Part shown: in pieces, positions 2,399-19,899 of the stretch | Layout: each line of letters opens with the position of its first letter | Position numbering within the stretch: position 1 is the stretch's first letter | Source of the DNA: Sordariomycetes sp. S80-01Y | Taxonomy: Eukaryota; Ascomycota; Sordariomycetes | Length of the DNA: 64,000 nt | Reading direction: 5' to 3' | NCBI GenBank assembly: GCA_037042185.1 | Contig: JAXQJY010000033.1 | Coordinates: forward strand, 2,294,001-2,358,000 | The notes under the pieces: model-generated | The model's database searches: none | What the model saw: only the letters and a program-made list of their open reading frames with translations | Told to the model about the DNA's origin: nothing | Position numbers and translations under genes: made by a program

Positions 2399-3904
2399 CT
2401 AATTCTTCCCGTCTGCGACGGCTACCATTTCAACATGATTGTGCTCACAACCTCCCATGACCTGCTTCAAATCCTCAGCAACCAGGGCGTGGCCATTACC
2501 GTTGGTGGCCAGCCCATTGCCGCTGACATGGCCATTGCCCATCTTGAGGACCTCCTCGACGGGCCGGCCCTGAACGTTGTAGCCGGTATCACTGCCGTCA
2601 ACGTACGCCTCGAGACCGTCTCCGGCGCGAGGATACTCCTTCATCAAGCCCTTGTGCACCTCAAGCGCCGCGCACATCTCTTCGTGCGTCACATCGTTCA
2701 GGAAGACGCACTTGCCCATGGGGCTGACCGGCACGGCGGCTCGGAGCAGGCCGTCGCGCGTCTTGAGGATGGCGGCCGTGGCTTTTTCCAGCAGCGGGCC
2801 GTCAAACTGCGGGTGGTCCATGGAGAGACCGGCGCGGGAGAAGAGATTGAGGACGCGGCGATGGTCTTCGGTGGTAAGGAGCCCGCGAATGTGGGAAAGA
2901 GTCGCCGAGTAGGCCATGTCGATGGAGATGGCATGCCCGTGACGCAGCGGTGGGTCGGGAACCAACTCATGGAGCGGCGACCAGCTAGTTACATGTGAGT
3001 CGGAGCTGTGTCAAAGAATGGTAGACTCTTACGTGTGGCCGTAGGCAATGACACGGTCCAGCATGATCTCATGGAGATTGGGCGTCTCCAGCTTGAGCAT
3101 CTCGTAGATACCAGCCCTACAGATCCTGTCCGCAGCCTTCTTCAACTCCGCACCGGCATTGTCAGTCCTGCCGAAGCCAGTACCGATGAGGTCCTCACAG
3201 TACTTGTCGAGCAGATCAAAAGTCTCCCCGTGGGCGCACGAAGAGATCTTGATCAACTCGGCGAAGCCGTTGCGGATCTGAGCCTCTGGAAGCGTGCGGA
3301 GGAATGTGAAGTCGAGGAATGTATGGATGGGAGCGTGGTAAGCCCCCAGACGGTTCTTGTACCGCCCGTAGTTGACAGCAACCTTAATGGAAACGGATGC
3401 GTCGATTAGGCCGATGACCGTGGTGGGGATGCGGATGTAGTTGGTGTTGCGGCGATACGCGGCACACGCGAAGCTGGGTTATCTTAGTGAGGGGCTCGGG
3501 GGGGAAAAGGGGTGAGGGCTTTCTCACCCAGCAACATCAGTCACTAGACCGCCACCGACGACAAGCACGGCCTCCTTGCGGTATACGCCAAACTCGTTCA
3601 TAGAGTCGACGATGCCGAGCAAGGTGTCCATGCCCTTGGCCTTTTCTCCCACCATGGTCTGATGAACCTTGAGTTCAATGCCGTGGTGATCCATGTACCT
3701 CTGGAGCTGCGGGCCGTACAGACCGTACATGTTCATGTCCATGACGGCCAGGCAGCGCTTCCACCTGGCATAGCACTCAGCCAACTGGGTGTTGGCCTGG
3801 TCAAAGACATTGTCAAGGAACTCGAAGTCGTACTCGATCTTCTCGTATCCCGTGACGGAGAACCCCTTGGTGGTGGGCTCGACGGAAGCTTTCATGTCGG
3901 ACAT
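2399..3904 (-). CDS. mysA: Sugar-phosphate cyclase, desmethyl-4-deoxygadusol synthase type (MysA-like)
   Basis: Exons 3904-3528, 3473-3033 and 2984-2399 join in frame to 467 residues. The protein belongs to the dehydroquinate-synthase-like family. It has the NAD-binding [10 protein letters not shown] segment (about 117-126), then [17 protein letters not shown], a GAYHAP segment, the FAELIK metal/active-site block, and the C-terminal zinc-binding HTWSPLHE and [13 protein letters not shown] blocks. It stands alone, whereas fungal shikimate-pathway DHQ synthase is part of the pentafunctional AROM protein, so a secondary-metabolite cyclase is expected. GAYHAP and the linked methyltransferase and ATP-grasp genes fit DDG synthase, the first enzyme of mycosporine synthesis, which in the cyanobacterial route uses sedoheptulose 7-phosphate. 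The last ~40 residues are a Gly/Asn/His-rich tail not needed for the fold. 2-epi-5-epi-valiolone synthase is the main alternative. Confidence 0.85.
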
Positions 3905-5133
3905 CTTGGCTGAGGATTTCTGGGTGAGCGGCCAAGGAAAGGACCAACTCGGTGTGTTTGGGGTAGATCTTGGGAAGAGTAGAGGAGATGTGATGGAGGC
4001 CTGAATGAGAATAGAGGATACTTGTTACATGGGTCATGGAGGTTTATATGGGCAACCAGAGCACAGCATCTGGGGGCAGGTTGGACGACACGAGATCGTC
4101 ACATGGACACGTTCGGAATGGACAGGCCAAACAAGCCTCGAGTGGAGGCTACAATCGATCTGACCGCGTTTTCAAGGTTCAATGGAGCTTCCAGACCGGT
4201 GTTTCCTGGCCAATGTGCCGATTGAAGGTCGTGAATCGAGAGGCGGGCCGTGTCAAGTACAGAGGACTCGTCCGCGGCGAGGGAAGGGCTACTAGCGAGA
4301 GGTATAGCCTACCTCAGCATGAACATCGGGAACTTTGGTCCAGATGGAAAAGTGATGATGTCCATGATTATGTGCCGTGCTGGATACAATGGGTCGCGAT
4401 CGATACCAATGGGTTAAGCTAAGCCCGCTCACCGAAGTCATGATGCCTTGACGCTTCGAGTGAAACAAGGCCAATGCGGCCAACGAGAGCTCCCCACGCA
4501 ACCAAAGTCAATCCGCACGACGGACTGGTTCGACTGGATCTCTGCTCTGGGGCGCACAAGGCTCGGCATCCGATGGTGTGTCTGTCGTAGTGTCATATAT
4601 CCATGGCGGCGTCCGGCCGTGTCATTGCCGGCCACCACGTTCCTACAGCATCGACGGCAGAGATGTCTCGCAGTCTCGGGCGATCAATTCTAGAATTGCC
4701 ATTGGCGCACCTCGGATCAGCGCCGGTTGCTAAGAAAAGGTTCAGATGGTGCGGCCCCTGGCATGAGAGGCAGCGAAGCTAATTGTCCGATGGAGGGGGA
4801 GGGATGAGGGGGGACGCACGGCGTCGAGGACGGGAGACACGAAGCGTGTCGTGGGAGTGTGCGCGTCATCCACTAGGGAGACATCGCGAAAACAGGTGAC
4901 TTGACCGACCCAAGAAGCTCCGGCCCACGCACTCATTGGAAGTGGCTACATATGTTGTGGAGCAAGGCGGCGTTTTCCAGCATATGTAAGACATCGGCGG
5001 TGTTGGAGAAGCATAGGTCGAAAGTGGGGAGCTCTACATGGAGCTTGCGTGAGGGAGGGGAAGGGGAGACAACTCTGGATACCCGAGCTTCGCCTTTGTT
5101 TCACTGTTACTGCAGACACAGAAAATACTGAAC
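3905..5133. promoter_or_regulatory. Divergent intergenic region between the cyclase and methyltransferase genes
   Basis: These 1.2 kb separate two start codons facing away from each other and contain no credible gene. They must hold the promoters of both pathway genes. On the minus strand a TATA-like CATATAAAC (4042-4050) lies about 140 bases before the cyclase ATG. On the plus side the 60 bases before the methyltransferase ATG are CT-rich, as in fungal 5' UTRs. Sharing one region would allow co-regulation, which is inference. Confidence 0.5.
4042..4050 (-). promoter_or_regulatory. TATA-like element upstream of the cyclase gene
   Basis: The minus strand reads CATATAAAC, about 140 bases before the ATG at 3904. 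It is the best TATA match in this intergenic region. Spacing is plausible only with a 5' UTR of roughly 100 bases. Confidence 0.3.
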
Positions 5134-6090
5134 ATGGCAGCACCTTTCGACGAAAAGAAGGCCTACGTTGCGCAGGAGGAGGTGTACTTTGACGATGGCA
5201 GGGAGATTGAATTGCTGCACTTTGTCTACGGACGGCCCAACATCGATGAGCTGCGAGGAAACCCCCAAAAGGTGCTTGCAGCCATTGACGAATATGGCCG
5301 AGCCAAGAAGTATCTCATGAATGTCGGAGAGGACAAGGGCAGGATTGTGTCGGATCTCATCGCAAAGGAGAAGCCGGAGACCATGGTGAGCTGGGCAGAC
5401 ATCTCACGCTTTAATCGCCGTTACTGACATAGAACAGGTTGAGCTTGGAGGCTACGTTGGCTATTCAGCCGTTCTTTTCGGCGACGCTTTCCGCAAGGCC
5501 GGAGGCAAGCAGTACTTCTCTCTGGAGCGCAATCCCGAATTTGGCGCCGTGATCTCCTCCCTCGTGGACCTGGCAGGTCTCAGCGACATCGTCAAGGTCA
5601 TTATCGGCCCTAGCGACAGCTCGCTGAGGCGGCTGCACAGGGAGAAGCGCTTCAGCAAGATCGACCTCATGTTCCTGGACCACTACAAGCCGGCCTACCT
5701 GTACGACACGAAGCTGAGCGAGGAGCTGGGGCTCATCCAGCTCGGGACCGTCCTGGCTGCCGACAATGTGATCAAGCCCGGCAACCCTCCTTACCTGGAG
5801 TACGTGCGGGCTTCGGTGGAAGACAAGAAGGCTGCGCTGCAGGACAAATCCCGCGGGAAGCCAGACCTGGAGTTCGACGACAAGTACTCCAAGATGTACG
5901 AGAAGAGGGAGGGCAAGGAAAAGTTCGACGAGGACGTCAAGGGCGTTCCGACCATGGTCTATCAGAGCGAGTTGATCAAGAGTTTCGAGCCAACTGGCGT
6001 TCCGGTACGTGCTGGAAAGCTCTATTGCTGATTTTTACTAACATTTCTTAGGACGGCATTGAGATCACGAGGTGCATAGGAAAGGAGTAA
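5134..6090 (+). CDS. mysB: Catechol-type O-methyltransferase (MysB-like)
   Basis: Exons 5134-5385, 5438-6004 and 6052-6090 give 285 residues. The SAM-binding motif VELGGYVGYS is at 85-94 and an acidic SLERN follows at the end of the second strand. The metal-binding residues of animal COMT are all present: Asp165 in MFLDH, and Asp193-Asn194 in AADNV. It would therefore be an Mg-dependent O-methyltransferase. Placed head-to-head with a DDG-synthase-like cyclase and just upstream of an ATP-grasp ligase, its likely job is methylation of desmethyl-4-deoxygadusol to 4-deoxygadusol, as MysB does in cyanobacteria. All three exon joins keep phase, and the last exon adds only 13 residues. A generic catechol or flavonoid methyltransferase role cannot be excluded from sequence alone. 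There is no signal peptide, so it should be cytosolic. Confidence 0.85.
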
Positions 6091-6491
6091 TTCCATAGTC
6101 AAACCAACCGTAGTCCTCATCTCTAATTAGTTCGTCTGCGTGGCCGCCGTCCTGATGTGTGGAGTTCTCCCCTTCTCTTCCCCAAGTACGCCGCGTCTGA
6201 TGGCGTGCATGTAAATCACTCCACCAGGAGCGGAGCAACATGTCCTGCCGATGGCATGTATGAGGACCGCTGGAATCTGCCGTCCAAGATGCATTCACCA
6301 GTGGGTTCACGATTCGCTCCACGATCCATGTGAGACGGGAATTGGAACACGATGACGTCTTACACTCACGCCGTGGGACGGCGATTGTGGGATCATGAAA
6401 TTTGCAGGCTTGTAGCACATCGCTCTTACGACCACCGTTCTTCCATCATCTGTGACCGTGGTAGAATCCAGGGTGTTCAAGGCGCGTCACG
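6091..6491. other. Intergenic between methyltransferase and ATP-grasp genes
   Basis: These 401 bases separate two genes on the same strand. I see no gene and no clear TATA box. The region must contain the 3' end of the methyltransferase transcript and the promoter of the ligase gene. Confidence 0.5.
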
Positions 6492-7967
6492 ATGTTCGAC
6501 TTCATAAGGCACAGGCTCAAGAACTTCGCCCTACTCACTCTCAGCCTCGTCCTGCTACCCATCAACACCGTTGCTGTCCTCGTCATCGACCTTTGGAGCA
6601 GATGCACCGTGAACCGGCATACCAACGATGCCATTCCCAAAAGTCTCAGGAAGACCGTTCTGGTCACAGGGGTGAGCATGGCGAAAGGTCTGTCCCTCGC
6701 CAGGTTGTTCCATCGCGCTGGGCATCGAGTCATCGGCGCAGACTTCCACCCGCTGTCGCTGGGCCGGGCATCCTCTTCAATCGACAAGTTCTACGCCTTG
6801 CCGTCTCCGAGAAAACAGCATCTCGCCGATGACGACGAGTTCGAGGACGACCCTTATGCGCTGAAACTGCTGGAGATTGTCAGGAACGAGCATGTCGACC
6901 TCTGGGTGTCGAACTCAGACGTCAGTGCTGCGATCCAAGATGCTGTGGCAAGAGACATGATGGAGTCGCAAACGACGACAAAGGCAATTCAATTGAGCGC
7001 ACAACACGTGAGGCTGCTTCATGAAAAGGACACCTTCATTGACCATGTGCGAGGTCTCGGCCTGGACGTCCCAGACACCGAGATTGTTCAGACTAGATCT
7101 GCCGTGATCGACTTCCTCAGCAAGCGCGGTGGGCTGAAAGCGCAGTCTGCTTCATCCAAAAGGTTCCTCCTCAAGCCTGTTGGTGTGAACGATGTTGCGA
7201 GGTGCGACATGCCCCTACTTCCATTGGCTTCTGAGCACGAGACGATTCGGAGGATCGACCAGGCCCCCCTCGAGACAGGCTCGTGGATCATGCAGGAATA
7301 CGTCCGAGGTTTTGAATTTTGCACCCACGCGCTCGTCGTCAAGGGACAGGTCCGCGCATTCGTCGCCTGTCCCTCGGCAGACCTGCTGATGCACTACAAG
7401 GCACTGGACCCGGACCTCCCCCTCAGCAAGGCAATGCTGGGGTTCACCCAGAAGGTTGCTGCTGCGAACGGTGACGACTTCACCGGGCATGTAAGCTTCG
7501 ACTTCTTGGTCAAGAGCGGTCTCAGCCATGCCAAAGACGACGAGGTTAAGCTTTACCCTATTGAGTGTAATCCTCGCGTCCATACGGCGACTGTCCTCTT
7601 CAACGACACCCCTGAGCTGGTGGAAGAGTATCTCGCAGTACTCGACCCTGGACTCAAGGCCACAGATAAGGCCATCGTCACGCCCACCAACCCGAAGAAG
7701 TACTACTGGGTCGGTCAAGACCTCGTTGAGCGGCTGCTCCATCCGATGTGGCGCTGCTTCCCTCGACTGCCCCAAGCTTCCGCAGAGACTCGCTCGTTTG
7801 TCAATCACGTCAAGAGCTGGAAGGATGGTACCTTTGAGACGTGGGATCCGTGGCCTTGGTGGTGGCTGTATCACGTGTACTGGCCAGTGCAGTTCGCTCA
7901 GTACATTGTCTGGGGTAAGTGGCAGAAGCTCAACGTGAGCACTGGCAAGGCATTCCAGGCCAAGTAG
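6492..7967 (+). CDS. mysC: Membrane-tethered ATP-grasp ligase (MysC-like)
   Basis: One exon, 491 residues. Residues ~12-35 are a hydrophobic helix (LLTLSLVLLPINTVAVLVI), suggesting an N-terminal membrane anchor. A preATP-grasp Rossmann-like segment (TVLVTGVSMAKGLSLARLF, about 55-73) follows. The ATP-grasp core shows KRFLLKPVGVND, SWIMQEYVRGFEF and the metal-binding IECNPRVHTA (about 357-366). Near the C-terminus is a Trp-rich segment (TWDPWPWWWLYHVYW), perhaps a second membrane-associated element. Family members form a phosphorylated acid and couple it to an amine; cyanobacterial MysC attaches glycine to 4-deoxygadusol. The two upstream genes make the same role likely here, with an unknown amino acid. 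Fungi are known to make mycosporines with alanine, serine, glutamine or glutaminol. There is no evidence in the window for the later MysD or NRPS-type step. Confidence 0.83.
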   Translation: MFDFIRHRLKNFALLTLSLVLLPINTVAVLVIDLWSRCTVNRHTNDAIPKSLRKTVLVTGVSMAKGLSLARLFHRAGHRVIGADFHPLSLGRASSSIDKFYALPSPRKQHLADDDEFEDDPYALKLLEIVRNEHVDLWVSNSDVSAAIQDAVARDMMESQTTTKAIQLSAQHVRLLHEKDTFIDHVRGLGLDVPDTEIVQTRSAVIDFLSKRGGLKAQSASSKRFLLKPVGVNDVARCDMPLLPLASEHETIRRIDQAPLETGSWIMQEYVRGFEFCTHALVVKGQVRAFVACPSADLLMHYKALDPDLPLSKAMLGFTQKVAAANGDDFTGHVSFDFLVKSGLSHAKDDEVKLYPIECNPRVHTATVLFNDTPELVEEYLAVLDPGLKATDKAIVTPTNPKKYYWVGQDLVERLLHPMWRCFPRLPQASAETRSFVNHVKSWKDGTFETWDPWPWWWLYHVYWPVQFAQYIVWGKWQKLNVSTGKAFQAK

Positions 7968-13270: not shown

Positions 13271-14747
13271 ATGTTTGACGTCGTCGTCGTCGGCGCCGGC
13301 CTCAGTGGCCTCCAGGCCGCCCTGTCCGCCAAACAAGCCGGCCTCTCAGTCGCCGTGGTGGAAGCCCGCGAACGCATCGGCGGCAAGGTATGGAGCGTGC
13401 CCGTCGCCTCGGGGCGCGGAATGGCGGATCTGGGCGCCGCCTGGGTCAATATCTACACTCAGAAGCGTATGGCTGCCTACGTCAAGCAATTCGGCCTCGA
13501 GACCACGGCGCAGCGGCTGGTGGGCAGGGCGGTAATGCAGGTCTCCAGCAGCGAGAGGAGCGAGTTCCCCTTTGGCATCACCCCTGATGTAAGTCATTCG
13601 AACTACACATGGCCAGGCCTTGTTGATGTTCGCTAGTTCCCGGCGGAAGAGAAAGCCGACCTCGAACGCATACGTGATCACATCCAGGCAGAGTCGCTCA
13701 AGCCCGAGTCGCCCAAGCAAGCGGACGACGAGGTGTCGCTGGACCAGTACATCCGCAACCTGAGGGCAAAGGAAAAGACCATCAGGATGATCAACATATG
13801 GGTCCAGGTCATGCACGGCGTTGACTCAAGCGAGGAGTCTGCCGCCTTCTTCATCGACTACTGCCGGAGAAACAAGGGGCTGTTCTCGATTCGCGCTGAC
13901 GACGAGACTGGGGGAAACCACCAGCGAATTCTGACTGGTAGGTCCCCTGTATCTCCATCCGAGTATCTATGTGCTAATTCTCGAGGCAGGCACAATCTCT
14001 TTTGCCAATGGCATGGCTGACCTGCTCGGCCGGTGGCACATCCACCTCGGCCAGCCCGTTGCGTCCATCCAAGACCTCAAACACCACGTCACCGTCACCA
14101 CCACCACTGGCAGGACCTTCAAGTGCCGCAAAGCCATCATCTCGCTCCCGAGTGCCATGTACAAGGGCCTCAACATCCAACCGCCCCTTCCCGCCCCGGC
14201 CCGCGATGTGTACGACTCCGCCAGGCTCGGCCACTACAACAAGTGCCTCGTCATCTACGACAGGCCATGGTGGCGGGATCTGGGCTACAACGGGTTCTTC
14301 ATCAGCTACGAGGGCCCATCAAATCTGGGCCGGGATACCTCCGTCGACGAGAAGGGGCTGTGGCAGCTGACGTGCTTCGTCAACGGCAGCAACGGCGAGA
14401 AGTGGAGCAGGCTCTCAACCCTTGAGCGCCGCAAGTTCATCTTGGATCAGCTAGCCAGGATTTACAACGTAGGTCCCGAATCCGAGGTGTATAAGCCGAT
14501 CGAGGTGTTTGACCAGATCTGGAAGCACGAGCCCTTCAGTCAGGGGGCGCTTGCACCCATCACCAAGATTGGACACTACGTCAAGTATGATGATGTCTAC
14601 GGGAAGCCGGTCGGAAATCTGCACTTTGTGGGCACAGAGTACTCGAAAGAGTGGAAGGGATACATGGAGGGTGCGGTGTGCTCAGGGGAGGCCGGGGCGA
14701 AGGAGGTCACGGAGGCGTTGCAGGCAACGCCGAGATCACGTCTGTAA
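13271..14747 (+). CDS. Flavin-containing amine oxidase
   Basis: Exons 13271-13588, 13637-13937 and 13990-14747 give 458 residues. The N-terminus is the FAD-binding VVVVGAGLSGLQAAL, followed by the acidic VVEARERIGGKVWS and then the MADLGAAWVN block. The C-terminal FAD-binding segment HFVGTEYSKEWKGYMEGAV (about 418-436) is typical of the monoamine oxidase family. Where MAO-A and MAO-B carry the covalent-FAD cysteine (SGGCY), this protein reads SQGAL (about 389), so FAD should be bound non-covalently. It would oxidise a primary or secondary amine to an aldehyde, releasing H2O2. There is no signal peptide or C-terminal membrane helix, so a cytosolic or peroxisomal enzyme is likely; the C-terminal SRL is a possible weak PTS1. 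It lies 117 bases from the tail of a Zn2Cys6 regulator. Confidence 0.88.
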
Positions 14748-14864: not shown

Positions 14865-16780
14865 TTACATGATAAACACCTGAGGCTCCGGCAGGAGGGC
14901 CGGCCAGTCTCGGTTCGAACTCCTCGACCATATCTTCTGCAGAAGCTCCAGGCCTTTCGGGATGTTCGCAAAGCCGTTCCGAATGTACTGCTTGGAGAAG
15001 AATTGCCTGAAGTACTGCTGCTGGGCGACGTCACGGCTCTCGGACGCCGCGATGAAGCACGACCATATAAGGATGTGCTCCCCGGGCAGGCCCTGGGGGA
15101 ACTTCCTGAGCGTCCGCAAGAAGGTTTCGACGTTCTGCGAGTGGTAGTCCTCCATGTCATCCTGGCCGGTGCACAGCACCCGTTGGAGGTAGATGTTGAA
15201 CGCCTGTCGGCGGAGGTTGGCGATGATGTCGAAGGCCGGGGCGTACTCTGGGTACAGCCGGGTGTAGTATGTCAGGCAATCGAAGCTCTCGTCCGCCTGG
15301 GACATGAGAGCACGTAGACCATCGTCTTGGCTCAGAAGCGGTGCAGCGTAAACTTTCATCCTGTCATCGTCAGCACTCGATCGGAAGAGCTGAGCCTCAG
15401 TGCCTTACTTTCGGATCTGTCTCAGCGAGAATTCAGCGACCTCGCCGCCGTGCTTCAACCCGTTCTCTCCGCCGATGGCATCGATGGCTGACTGCAGCAT
15501 GCGAAACATGACTGGGAAGTCCGAACAGCCATTGATCATCACGACGACCAACAAGACCACGATAGCTAGGATGATCATTTGCTTAGTTTCGGCGTTATAG
15601 CCCGTCAGCTCGCGTCGCTGTTGCAGTTTCCTCAACGCCCCAACGTAAAGAGTTCTTGGGTTCGCAAGGACATGATAGTCGCCATTGCCTGATATATGGA
15701 AGGCAGAGGCGGCCAAGACGGCACTCATCACGAGGTCGTCCGTCAATGCAATAGGCAGGATGAGGTGGCGCCATCCGTTGTACTGACCGTCTATGACGAC
15801 CATCTCCGGGGCAATCTTCTCCGAGACTGGAAGACATCAGTGAAATTCGAAACGACTTGGGAGTGGAGCTATACTCACAGTGTCTCAACAAGAAGAGCTT
15901 TGAAGGTTCCACAAGGTCGATCTCTCGGCTTAGAGAAGGGCTATCCATGCAAACTGGAGAGGATCCAGGAGACTGATAAGGTTGAAATTCCACCTCTTCG
16001 ACATGCCCCGTCTCGAGGGGCTCCCCCTCTGCCGAGAAATCTTGGTCACCAATCATTGAGGCAAACTCGGATACAATCTCAAGTACCGCATTGGTGTTGC
16101 CCAGGAGCGAGGGCCCTTCAAACGATCCTCCCTCCAGCACATCAAAACTCGCATCCCAGACGGAGGGAGAGAACTCTGTCGTTTCAACTTGCCCATCCTG
16201 GCCATCAATCTGATAGTTGAGGAAACACAGAGGTACTTCACTCTCCGCGGCTGTCCAGTCCTCGGTGCCGATCGAGTTGGGGGATGTGAACTCAACGTCA
16301 CCCCAGTCAACTGTCGCCTGGACACTTCTGTCATCGGCGTCAAGTGTGCCGTCGGACTCAATGCAAGCATCAAGGCTCGCAGATCGCACCGGAGCATCGC
16401 TGGGCTTGAGGGTGAGGGATGATGCCGCGTCTGCAGAAGCATTTACCCATCCACTGACCCTTCCACCGCCCTTGGAGCCCTTCCGCCCAGGCCGCAGCCC
16501 ATCTCGAAACCTGTACTTGACGCCGAAGCCGCTGCAAGAAAGGCCCTTTGAATCGCACTTCTTGCAGTGCGGGTGCGTGTTATCGCAGTCTATCCTGCGC
16601 TGCGAGCACTCGTAGCAACCTGCGGCGGCGTGTCAGCATCCCGCACCCAGCACGAGTTCTTGACTAACTGCCTCTTTTTTTCACCACTTTTTCTGCGAGA
16701 AACATCCCAAAGTCCTCCCGTCAATTTCGCCTGGGCGTACCTTTGACTTTCGGAACATAGCCTCGTTTCTTGCGGGCCAT
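14865..16780 (-). CDS. Zn2Cys6 transcription factor with fungal-specific domain
   Basis: Exons 16780-16741, 16619-15879, 15826-15409 and 15360-14865 join to 564 residues. The binuclear zinc cluster is complete: Cys15, 18, 25, 32, 35 and 42 (CX2CX6CX6CX2CX6C), flanked by basic residues (MARKKRGYVPK and RRIDC). Residues ~80-260 are acidic and disordered, a possible activation region. The C-terminal half resembles the Fungal_trans_2 type, with LILPIALTDDLVMSAVLAASA, a hydrophobic helix IILAIVVLLVVVMI, and repeated Leu-rich helices. A first exon of 40 bases splits the zinc cluster from the start codon, as is usual in this class. The tail-to-tail neighbour is an amine oxidase. Regulators and targets are often linked in fungi, but no target is shown by the sequence. 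Confidence 0.88.
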
Positions 16781-17924: not shown

Positions 17925-19899
17925 CTACAGCTCCAGGCTGGGCTCCTGGCCCTTGACACGTCCAATGACCTGCTGCGGGGCATACTTGGGGATAACCTCG
18001 TCGTCGTGCAGCATCTCGAACTCCTCGGTGGCATCGCGGCCCATGAAGTTCATGATGGCCTGGGGGCCACCGGGGTGCTCGTCTAGCCAGTCGCTCAGGT
18101 CCATGACAACGCCCTTGACGACCACCCACAGGTCCTCCTTGGTGTTGTGCTTGGCCACCTCCTCGAGAGTGAACTCCTTCTCGGGGATCTTGAACTCCTT
18201 GGGGTTGTTGGGCTTGGAGGCGGCGGCGCCCTCCTTGACGGGGGTGGGTCCAGCGGCGGCCGTCGCGGCTTGCTGCTGCAGACCACCAGAACCGGAGGCA
18301 CCGCCGTTGGCCCACTCGACGGTGAGCTTGCCGGGTGCCGAGGGGTCGAGGTGAAGAGAGATCTGGCCGAGACGCTGGGCGGCGCCGGAGGAGCCGTTAA
18401 GGGCCTCCTGGAAGAGGAAGCTGCTGGCGGAGTCACCAGCAACGCGACCGTAGACAACACAGCCGAGAAGAGACGAGCCACCAAGACGGTTGGCACCGTG
18501 GACACCACCAGCAAGCTCACCACAGGCGAAGAGACCTTCGAAGGGCTTCATCTCCTTGTTGAGAACCTGGGCCTTGTCGTTGATCTCGATACCGCCCATG
18601 GTGAAGTGGAGAACGGGCTCCATGACGGCAACGTGGAAGGTGTCGTCGACGTTGAAGGGCAGGTTGTGGAAGAACTTCTTGCCCCAGGGGTCCTTCTGCT
18701 TGCCATCGGCGATGTCGTTGTAGGTGCTGAAGGTCTTCTGCAGGTGGTCGGGAGAGCAGCCAATCTCCTTGGCGAGCTCCTTGCCCGACATCTTCTTCAT
18801 CAAGCCACGGCCGGAGTAGTGGCGAGTGTGGAAGTCGAGGACGTTGGAAGCCTTGGAGTTGAGGACAAGACGGATGGGGAACTTGTCCTTCTTCTTCTCG
18901 TCCCACATCATGCCGGAGACGTAGTCACGGTGGCCGAGCTCGTCGCAGAAACGGTCACCGTCGGCGTTGAGCAGCAGACCGCCCTCACCACGGAGGGCCT
19001 CGGCAGCCAGGAACTTCCACTTGGACCCGGGGTCCTTGGGGTCGACAAGACCAGTAGGGTGGACCTGGACCTTGTCCATGTCGATGCCGTTTCCACCAAT
19101 GGCCATGACCATCTTCTGACCGTCACCGGTGGCGTGGGTGCCGTTGGTGGTGGCGAGGCCGAAGGTGTCGGGGCGGTGCTGCTTGAGCAGCGAAGAGTCG
19201 CCAAAGTCGGCAGCGTAACCACCGGTGGCCAGGATGACGGGGCCGTCGAGCGAGGAGCTCTCTCCCTGGTGCTCAAAGGTAACACCGGTAACTCTGTTGC
19301 CGTCCTTGTTCAGCCCGGTGACGCGGGCCTTCTTGAGGATGGTGACGCGCTCAGGCTCGGTCTCGGCGAGCTCCTCGAGGCGCTGCATGAGAGCGTATGT
19401 GATGGCCATACCCGGGAACTTGGCATCGTGGCCACGGTGGGTTCTGGGCTGGGAGTGACCGCCCAGGCGCGAAACCAGGGTCAGGTCGAGGTTGAAGACA
19501 TCCTGCAACCACTCGACGGCGGCGGCGGACTTGTATGTGAGGACCTTGATGAGGTCGGGGCGGGCCTTGTCACGGGCGGACTTGAGGGTGTCGTCGTAGA
19601 ACTGCTTGACGCTGTCGGCGATGCCCGTGTCGACCTGGGTGCGGGTGAGGGCACCGTTGATGCCAGAGGTGGCCTTTGTCGAGTTTCCGCCGAAGAAACC
19701 CTGCTTGTCGAGGACAGTGACGTTGCCGCCGGCGAGGTAGATGGTGTGCGCGGCACTCAGACCGGAAACTGCGAGCGGCGACAATTAGCGACGGGGACCT
19801 CAAGATGGGCAGCTTGGGGCAGAGCGCAGCATGACGCAAAGGACTGGGGGAGGGGAGAGACTTACGGCCGCCGCCCACGACAATGACGCTGGGAGCCAT
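17925..19899 (-). CDS. OSM1: Soluble fumarate reductase (Osm1-type) fused to cytochrome b5
   Basis: Exons 19899-19866 and 19768-17925 give 625 residues. The first exon encodes only the start of the dinucleotide motif; splicing restores VVGGGLSGLSAAHTIYLAGG. The flavoprotein catalytic blocks are present: HPTGLVDP, EALRGEGGLLLN with RFCDELGHRDYVS, HFTMGGIEI and the C-terminal GELAGGVHGANRLGGSSLLG. These are the hallmarks of FAD-dependent fumarate reductases, which reduce fumarate to succinate to reoxidise FAD or NADH under low oxygen. Residues ~545-615 form a cytochrome b5 domain with both haem histidines, in DEHPGG and FEMLHDDE. Yeast Osm1 and Frd1 lack this domain, but the fusion is frequent in filamentous ascomycetes. 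No obvious targeting peptide is seen, so cytosol is the default. Confidence 0.9.

Follow-up and report, generated by a model that had tools for sequence, protein, structure and literature searches.

Does the segment at positions 2399-7967 of this 64,000-nucleotide stretch of Sordariomycetes sp. S80-01Y (contig JAXQJY010000033.1, positions 2,294,001 to 2,358,000; hereafter the window) encode a mycosporine pathway, and if so, of which kind? A first-pass annotation had placed a stand-alone cyclase, an O-methyltransferase (OMT) and an ATP-grasp ligase side by side within 5.6 kb, and complete frames for all three were recovered exactly there. The whole trio is contained in this interval, with the cyclase (467 aa; exons 3904-3528, 3473-3033 and 2984-2399, minus strand) divergent from the OMT (285 aa; exons 5134-5385, 5438-6004 and 6052-6090, plus strand) and the ligase (491 aa; 6492-7967, plus strand). 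In the predicted gene models the cyclase and the OMT have two introns each and the ligase none; all introns are GT-AG, and there are no internal stops.

We conclude that the locus is very probably a fungal mycosporine (MYC) cluster making one oxo-mycosporine, judging from sequence comparisons and from analogy with the MYC cluster of Phaffia rhodozyma (PMC10057719). It almost certainly builds a mycosporine, and as such is a largely expected further example of a known pathway type, of modest interest. In the proposed pathway, the cyclase would convert sedoheptulose 7-phosphate to desmethyl-4-deoxygadusol (DDG), the methyltransferase would convert this to 4-deoxygadusol, and the ligase would activate 4-deoxygadusol and join it to one amino compound, giving an oxo-mycosporine with absorbance near 310 nm. 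We infer these reactions, as well as the amine, the expression of the trio and its sunscreen role.

The cyclase

The cyclase matches Pfam DHQ_synthase (104.5 bits), and among proteins of solved structure is by far the most similar to 5tpr (468.8 bits; 54% identity to the 5tpr piece), which we take to be the Anabaena DDG synthase (DDGS) Ava_3858. The 2-epi-5-epi-valiolone (EEV) synthase (EEVS) ValA (4p53) scores 243.9 bits, and the best 3-dehydroquinate synthase (DHQS) 114.3 bits. A 32-row tree was built from the window cyclase, four PDB pieces, 11 of 63 DDGS-type bacterial loci, loci L064 and L066, the AROM of the host genome, and 13 of the 17 loci L081-L097 (L081-L084 were omitted because they come from the same genomes as L013, L016, L027 and L064). 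In this tree the window cyclase lies inside a 16-row set that contains all 12 DDGS rows (99/98), although its position within that set is not settled, and the DHQS rows separate at 100/100. Three EEVS rows fall outside the DDGS set without forming one clade; two of them, L089 and L090, were labelled as EEVS solely because they are 53% and 48% identical to ValA. Outside the DDGS set, the cyclases of L064, L095 and L096 make up a separate 100/100 branch, and that of L066 lies deeper.

Individual residues point the same way. Of 161 residues shared without exception by the 12 DDGS rows, the window cyclase retains 139; it carries the DDGS state at 33 of the 45 positions that separate these rows from the three EEVS rows, and it keeps all 29 residues that are invariant across the superfamily (22 rows compared). 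Residues 269 and 348, which we take to be the published DDGS/EEVS fingerprint, are Ala and Thr as in DDGS; in the three EEVS-type rows they are D and H. The sequence evidence thus argues that the cyclase is of the DDGS type, and it clusters with DDG synthases and away from DHQ and EEV synthases; the placement that the first-pass annotation had named as refuting its reading did not arise.

A separate DHQS elsewhere in the genome also favors this reading. The host genome (30.87 Mb in 16 contigs) has only one other DHQ_synthase match, and this is in the AROM locus, where an 801-residue part of the frame best matches the AROM chain 6hqv (1171 bits), followed by 7u5s (881 bits). As 6hqv is from Chaetomium thermophilum, this points weakly to a filamentous ascomycete host, perhaps a Sordariomycete. 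The DHQS domain of AROM has the same fold family as the window cyclase but sits on the other side of the 100/100 split; together with the PDB scores, this leads us to reject a DHQS identity for the window cyclase.

The ligase

The ligase gene is intronless, and its product has a predicted hydrophobic N-terminal helix. No Pfam family matches it at E<=0.001, and PDB sequences include no credible full-length match; a profile search of PDB sequences with the ligase alignment returned one match, to the N-terminal part only, from a short-chain dehydrogenase (E 1.2e-4). Its kinship emerges from 65 bacterial loci, drawn from a larger set of 182 stretches in which at least one of two peptide patterns taken from the window cyclase occurs. 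Using tblastn, a relative of the ligase was found downstream of the cyclase and on the same strand in 63 of the 65; the two loci without a match, L064 and L066, have cyclases only 35% and 33% identical to the window cyclase. Near-invariant positions were defined from 61 bacterial ligases (the short L034 and L046, and the own-genome L069, were left out), and those retained in the window ligase include Lys228, Asp337 and Glu358-Cys-Asn-Pro-Arg362.

An AlphaFold2 model of the ligase, from an alignment of 40 of the 61 bacterial ligases plus the window protein, has a mean predicted local distance difference test score of 81.0 and a predicted template modeling (TM) score of 0.86, and is weak at residues 232-235, 406-428 and 484-491. 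A Foldseek search with this model gave 240 matches at E<=0.001, and the 50 listed all bear names of ATP-grasp enzymes; these 50 have TM-scores of 0.37-0.47 over the query, and include carbamoyl-phosphate synthetase, PurK, PylC and glycinamide ribonucleotide synthetase. The modeled fold and the bacterial relatives argue that this is a MysC-like ATP-grasp enzyme, and the earlier assignment of an ATP-grasp ligase beside the cyclase and OMT holds. In a ligase tree (23 bacterial rows plus the window) the terminal branch leading to the window protein has a length of 8.7, and the protein falls in a 95/93 set with eight cyanobacterial rows and one actinobacterial row; this placement is unsafe and we make no use of it.

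The methyltransferase

Both the window OMT and cyanobacterial MysB are covered by Pfam Methyltransf_3 (50.2 and 190 bits, respectively), but their closest structural relatives are reversed. The window OMT scores 151.3 bits with 5zy5, named probable catechol O-methyltransferase (COMT) 1, 142.4 bits with the next COMT, and 46.3 bits with the best family-3 OMT in the PDB, whereas cyanobacterial MysB scores 130.1 bits with the O-methyltransferase 3cbg and 43.5 bits with the best vertebrate-type COMT. A 14-row tree including 10 of 57 extracted MysB proteins (L009 and L031 are absent from the extracted set) splits the window OMT and the COMTs from MysB and 3cbg at 100/100. Because the reciprocal scores and the tree both separate COMT from MysB, the methylation step appears to belong to a different OMT subfamily than in bacteria, where MysB is of the family-3 (caffeoyl-CoA) type.

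The COMT-type label of the first-pass annotation is therefore confirmed, but its claim that the trio is exactly the cyanobacterial MysA, MysB and MysC stands only in part: the DDGS-type cyclase and the MysC-related ligase fit, and the OMT lies outside the MysB subfamily, which rules out a gene-for-gene equivalence with the MysABC set of cyanobacteria. In Naganishia yeasts, mycosporine genes have been printed under the name catechol O-methyltransferase (PMC12204325, PMC8875396), and in the parts of the literature that surfaced there was no statement that a COMT replaces MysB in fungal mycosporine genes. At the Mycobacterium gordonae locus (L027, 6001-8558) the ligase match begins ~200 bp past the cyclase match, leaving no space for MysB.

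End product and amine

Bacterial loci commonly encode a further ligation enzyme, with MysD or MysE relatives at E<=1e-20 in 59 of the 63 (MysD in 51, MysE in 11). Downstream of the bacterial ligases (for example, at L004 9380-11175) there is a D-Ala-D-Ala-ligase-type MysD in 51 of 63 loci and a TauD-family dioxygenase, possibly MysH, in 42 of 63. Across the window plus 10 kb of left flank, MysD and MysE queries gave no credible match at E<=1; queries with MysE and MysH gave 36-residue matches only (E 0.82 and 0.72, respectively) near 41-42 kb of the window, which we take as chance. No NRPS-like partner turned up in this stretch either. A bacterial MysD query of the whole genome, run without a positive control, returned nothing at E<=1. 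The first-pass annotation had noted the lack of a nearby MysD or nonribosomal peptide synthetase (NRPS) gene and had suggested a mono-substituted oxo-mycosporine; because there is no credible MysD or MysE match near the trio and no MysD match genome-wide, such a product is indeed the likeliest from the sequence.

The alternative that survives best is that the pathway is the same but adds two amines, giving an imino-type mycosporine-like amino acid (MAA) by way of an unlinked gene for the second ligation. PF07478 does match nine genomic sites above its cut-off, and an unlinked gene of this kind is conceivable. Nonetheless, we regard this as very unlikely, given the outcome of the MysD query; moreover, six of the nine matches are in open frames of >700 aa, as would fit carboxylase or carbamoyl-phosphate synthase genes, and fungi are described as makers of mycosporines and not of MAAs (PMC10057719).

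For an oxo-mycosporine with one amine, the sequence does not tell which amine is joined. By analogy with Phaffia, our first guess is glutaminol, added directly or as glutamine that is reduced later, with alanine and serinol as alternatives; a parallel with the mycosporine-alanine of Colletotrichum is a guess. The first-pass annotation had called the amine of fungal ligases poorly defined, which is apt for this locus but not for Phaffia, where glutaminol is established (PMC10057719). A mass assigned to mycosporine-alanine has been reported for Beauveria pseudobassiana (PMC8952764), and the compound appears in the title of work cited for Colletotrichum graminicola (PMC12445352). According to a review, terrestrial cyanobacteria have also yielded mycosporine-alanine and mycosporine-glutaminol (PMC3083659), and these amines are therefore not a mark of fungi.

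Weighing the assignment

A second alternative is that the cyclase makes EEV rather than DDG. EEVS is the next most similar cyclase of solved structure, shares the sugar-phosphate cyclase superfamily and its 29 invariant residues with the window protein, and the Phaffia gene was originally called EEVS-like (PMC5103461). However, the 4p53 score, the tree and the A269/T348 pair rule against an EEVS identity, and the genes beside it encode an OMT of COMT type and an ATP-grasp ligase instead of MT-Ox, which makes gadusol in vertebrates (PMC4426668), although no search was aimed at MT-Ox. We consider the EEVS reading highly improbable.

Chance assembly of the trio can be addressed from the genome. 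Lossy searches of all 30.87 Mb gave no further OMT at E<=0.001, nor another ligase (the next match has E 0.17), and by our own arithmetic the probability of three single-copy genes landing so close at random is ~1e-7. That the three are mere neighbors (a diverged cyclase, a catechol methyltransferase with a housekeeping role, and an ATP-grasp gene with no relation to them) is a negligible prospect: the OMT being COMT-type and not MysB would suit it, but each gene is detected once in the genome (AROM aside), all lie within 5.6 kb, 63 of 65 bacterial loci show the pairing of cyclase and ligase, Phaffia has a working trio of the same kind (PMC10057719), and the catechol O-methyltransferase name is printed for the Naganishia genes noted above.

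Several observations do weigh against assignment of the locus as a MYC cluster with a DDGS and a MysC-like ligase. The cyclase departs from the DDGS state at 12 of the 45 positions that distinguish DDGS from EEVS, and the set of bacterial loci leans toward DDGS, since the patterns used to collect it were taken from the window cyclase itself. Identity between the ligase and the 40 bacterial MysC proteins compared is no more than 28-32%, and of 108 positions that are near-invariant in MysC the ligase retains 52. It scores 177.6 bits with NCBIfam PRK06849, under the model cut-off of 406 (Anabaena MysC scores 568 bits), and so falls outside the MysC type by that cut-off, though its homology to the bacterial relatives is clear. 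Finally, the match to Phaffia is with the printed text of PMC10057719 and not with the cluster sequence, which is GenBank OQ547787 (PMC10057719).

Gene arrangement and neighborhood

The 1229-bp region between the opposed starts of the cyclase and OMT (3905-5133) is a candidate bidirectional promoter, and the OMT and ligase are separated by 401 bp (6091-6491). Ten types of regulatory motif, scored in both intergenic regions, showed no clear excess over first-order simulation; the rarest count, of CreA-like motifs in the 401-bp region, was reached in 23 of 200 simulations. Third-position G+C content is unremarkable, at 0.77, 0.77 and 0.71 for the trio and 0.58-0.83 for three other window genes.

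Flanking genes were scanned as selected open frames, unspliced. An AhpC/TSA_2 peroxiredoxin-like gene (PF13911; 8089-8673, minus strand) is convergent with the ligase, ~120 bp from its stop codon, and could be a co-located stress function or a mere neighbor. Further right, a Zn2Cys6 transcription factor gene (15598-16632, minus strand) is ~8 kb from the cluster, with amine-oxidase (13971-14747) and flavin adenine dinucleotide/cytochrome b5 (17925-19784) genes near it. The 10 kb to the left of the window (L098) include a dihydroxyacetone kinase (Dak1/Dak2) gene at 5401-7127 on the plus strand and, further left, a dihydrodipicolinate synthase-like gene at 1523-2227.

Comparison with known systems

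No experimental study of an ascomycete trio of this kind surfaced in the open-licence literature. In C. graminicola, mycosporines regulate spore germination and the biosynthetic pathway is called largely unknown (PMC12445352), and a Colletotrichum genome survey reports no mycosporine cluster even though the compound is known there (PMC4974774). Because the trio has no NRPS or polyketide synthase (PKS), mining anchored on NRPS/PKS genes could overlook such clusters, which we offer as our own explanation for that survey. NRPS-like mycosporine-type clusters are described in most genomes of the Hypoxylaceae (PMC8403587), and these may or may not be equivalent to the trio.

The closest bacterial counterparts are the mysABC(D/E/H) loci. 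Across 63 of these, the cyclases are 52-58% identical to the window cyclase and an ATP-grasp relative is always found downstream (63/63). However, MysB is of a different OMT subfamily than the COMT-type window enzyme, the cyclase and ligase genes are codirectional in bacteria and divergent in the window, the window ligase is far more diverged than the cyclase, and the MysD or MysE genes of 59 loci have no match near the window trio. One tentative interpretation, which we think somewhat doubtful, is that the fungal cluster was not transferred from bacteria as an operon but is a mosaic: a close DDGS relative would have been combined with a eukaryotic COMT that took over from MysB, and with a far-diverged MysC-like ligase whose amine site may have been rebuilt for an amino alcohol or another non-glycine amine. 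Residue 283 of the ligase, where Val stands for Arg, is among its 56 changes at near-invariant positions.

The Phaffia MYC cluster, self-described as the first functional fungal mycosporine cluster, is the closer match. There, mycosporines are lost on knockout of each gene, the ligase mutant makes 4-deoxygadusol, and Saccharomyces cerevisiae carrying all three genes makes mycosporine-glutaminol (PMC10057719). As in the window, a divergent DDGS gene is followed by OMT and ATPG genes in tandem on the other strand, and the cluster includes neither a MysD nor an NRPS gene; the proteins are of similar length (477, 284 and 500 aa vs 467, 285 and 491 aa), and a peptide said to tell DDGS from DHQS is identical at 24 of 30 positions in the window cyclase by hand count (PMC10057719). 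The Phaffia genes differ in having 14, 7 and 6 exons (3, 3 and 1 in the window) and intergenic regions of 1568 and 621 bp (1229 and 401 bp in the window) (PMC10057719), and Phaffia is a basidiomycete yeast whereas the host here is an ascomycete. The locus would extend to an ascomycete a pathway known from that yeast, and its compact, complete gene set offers a handle for finding the amine that such ligases use.

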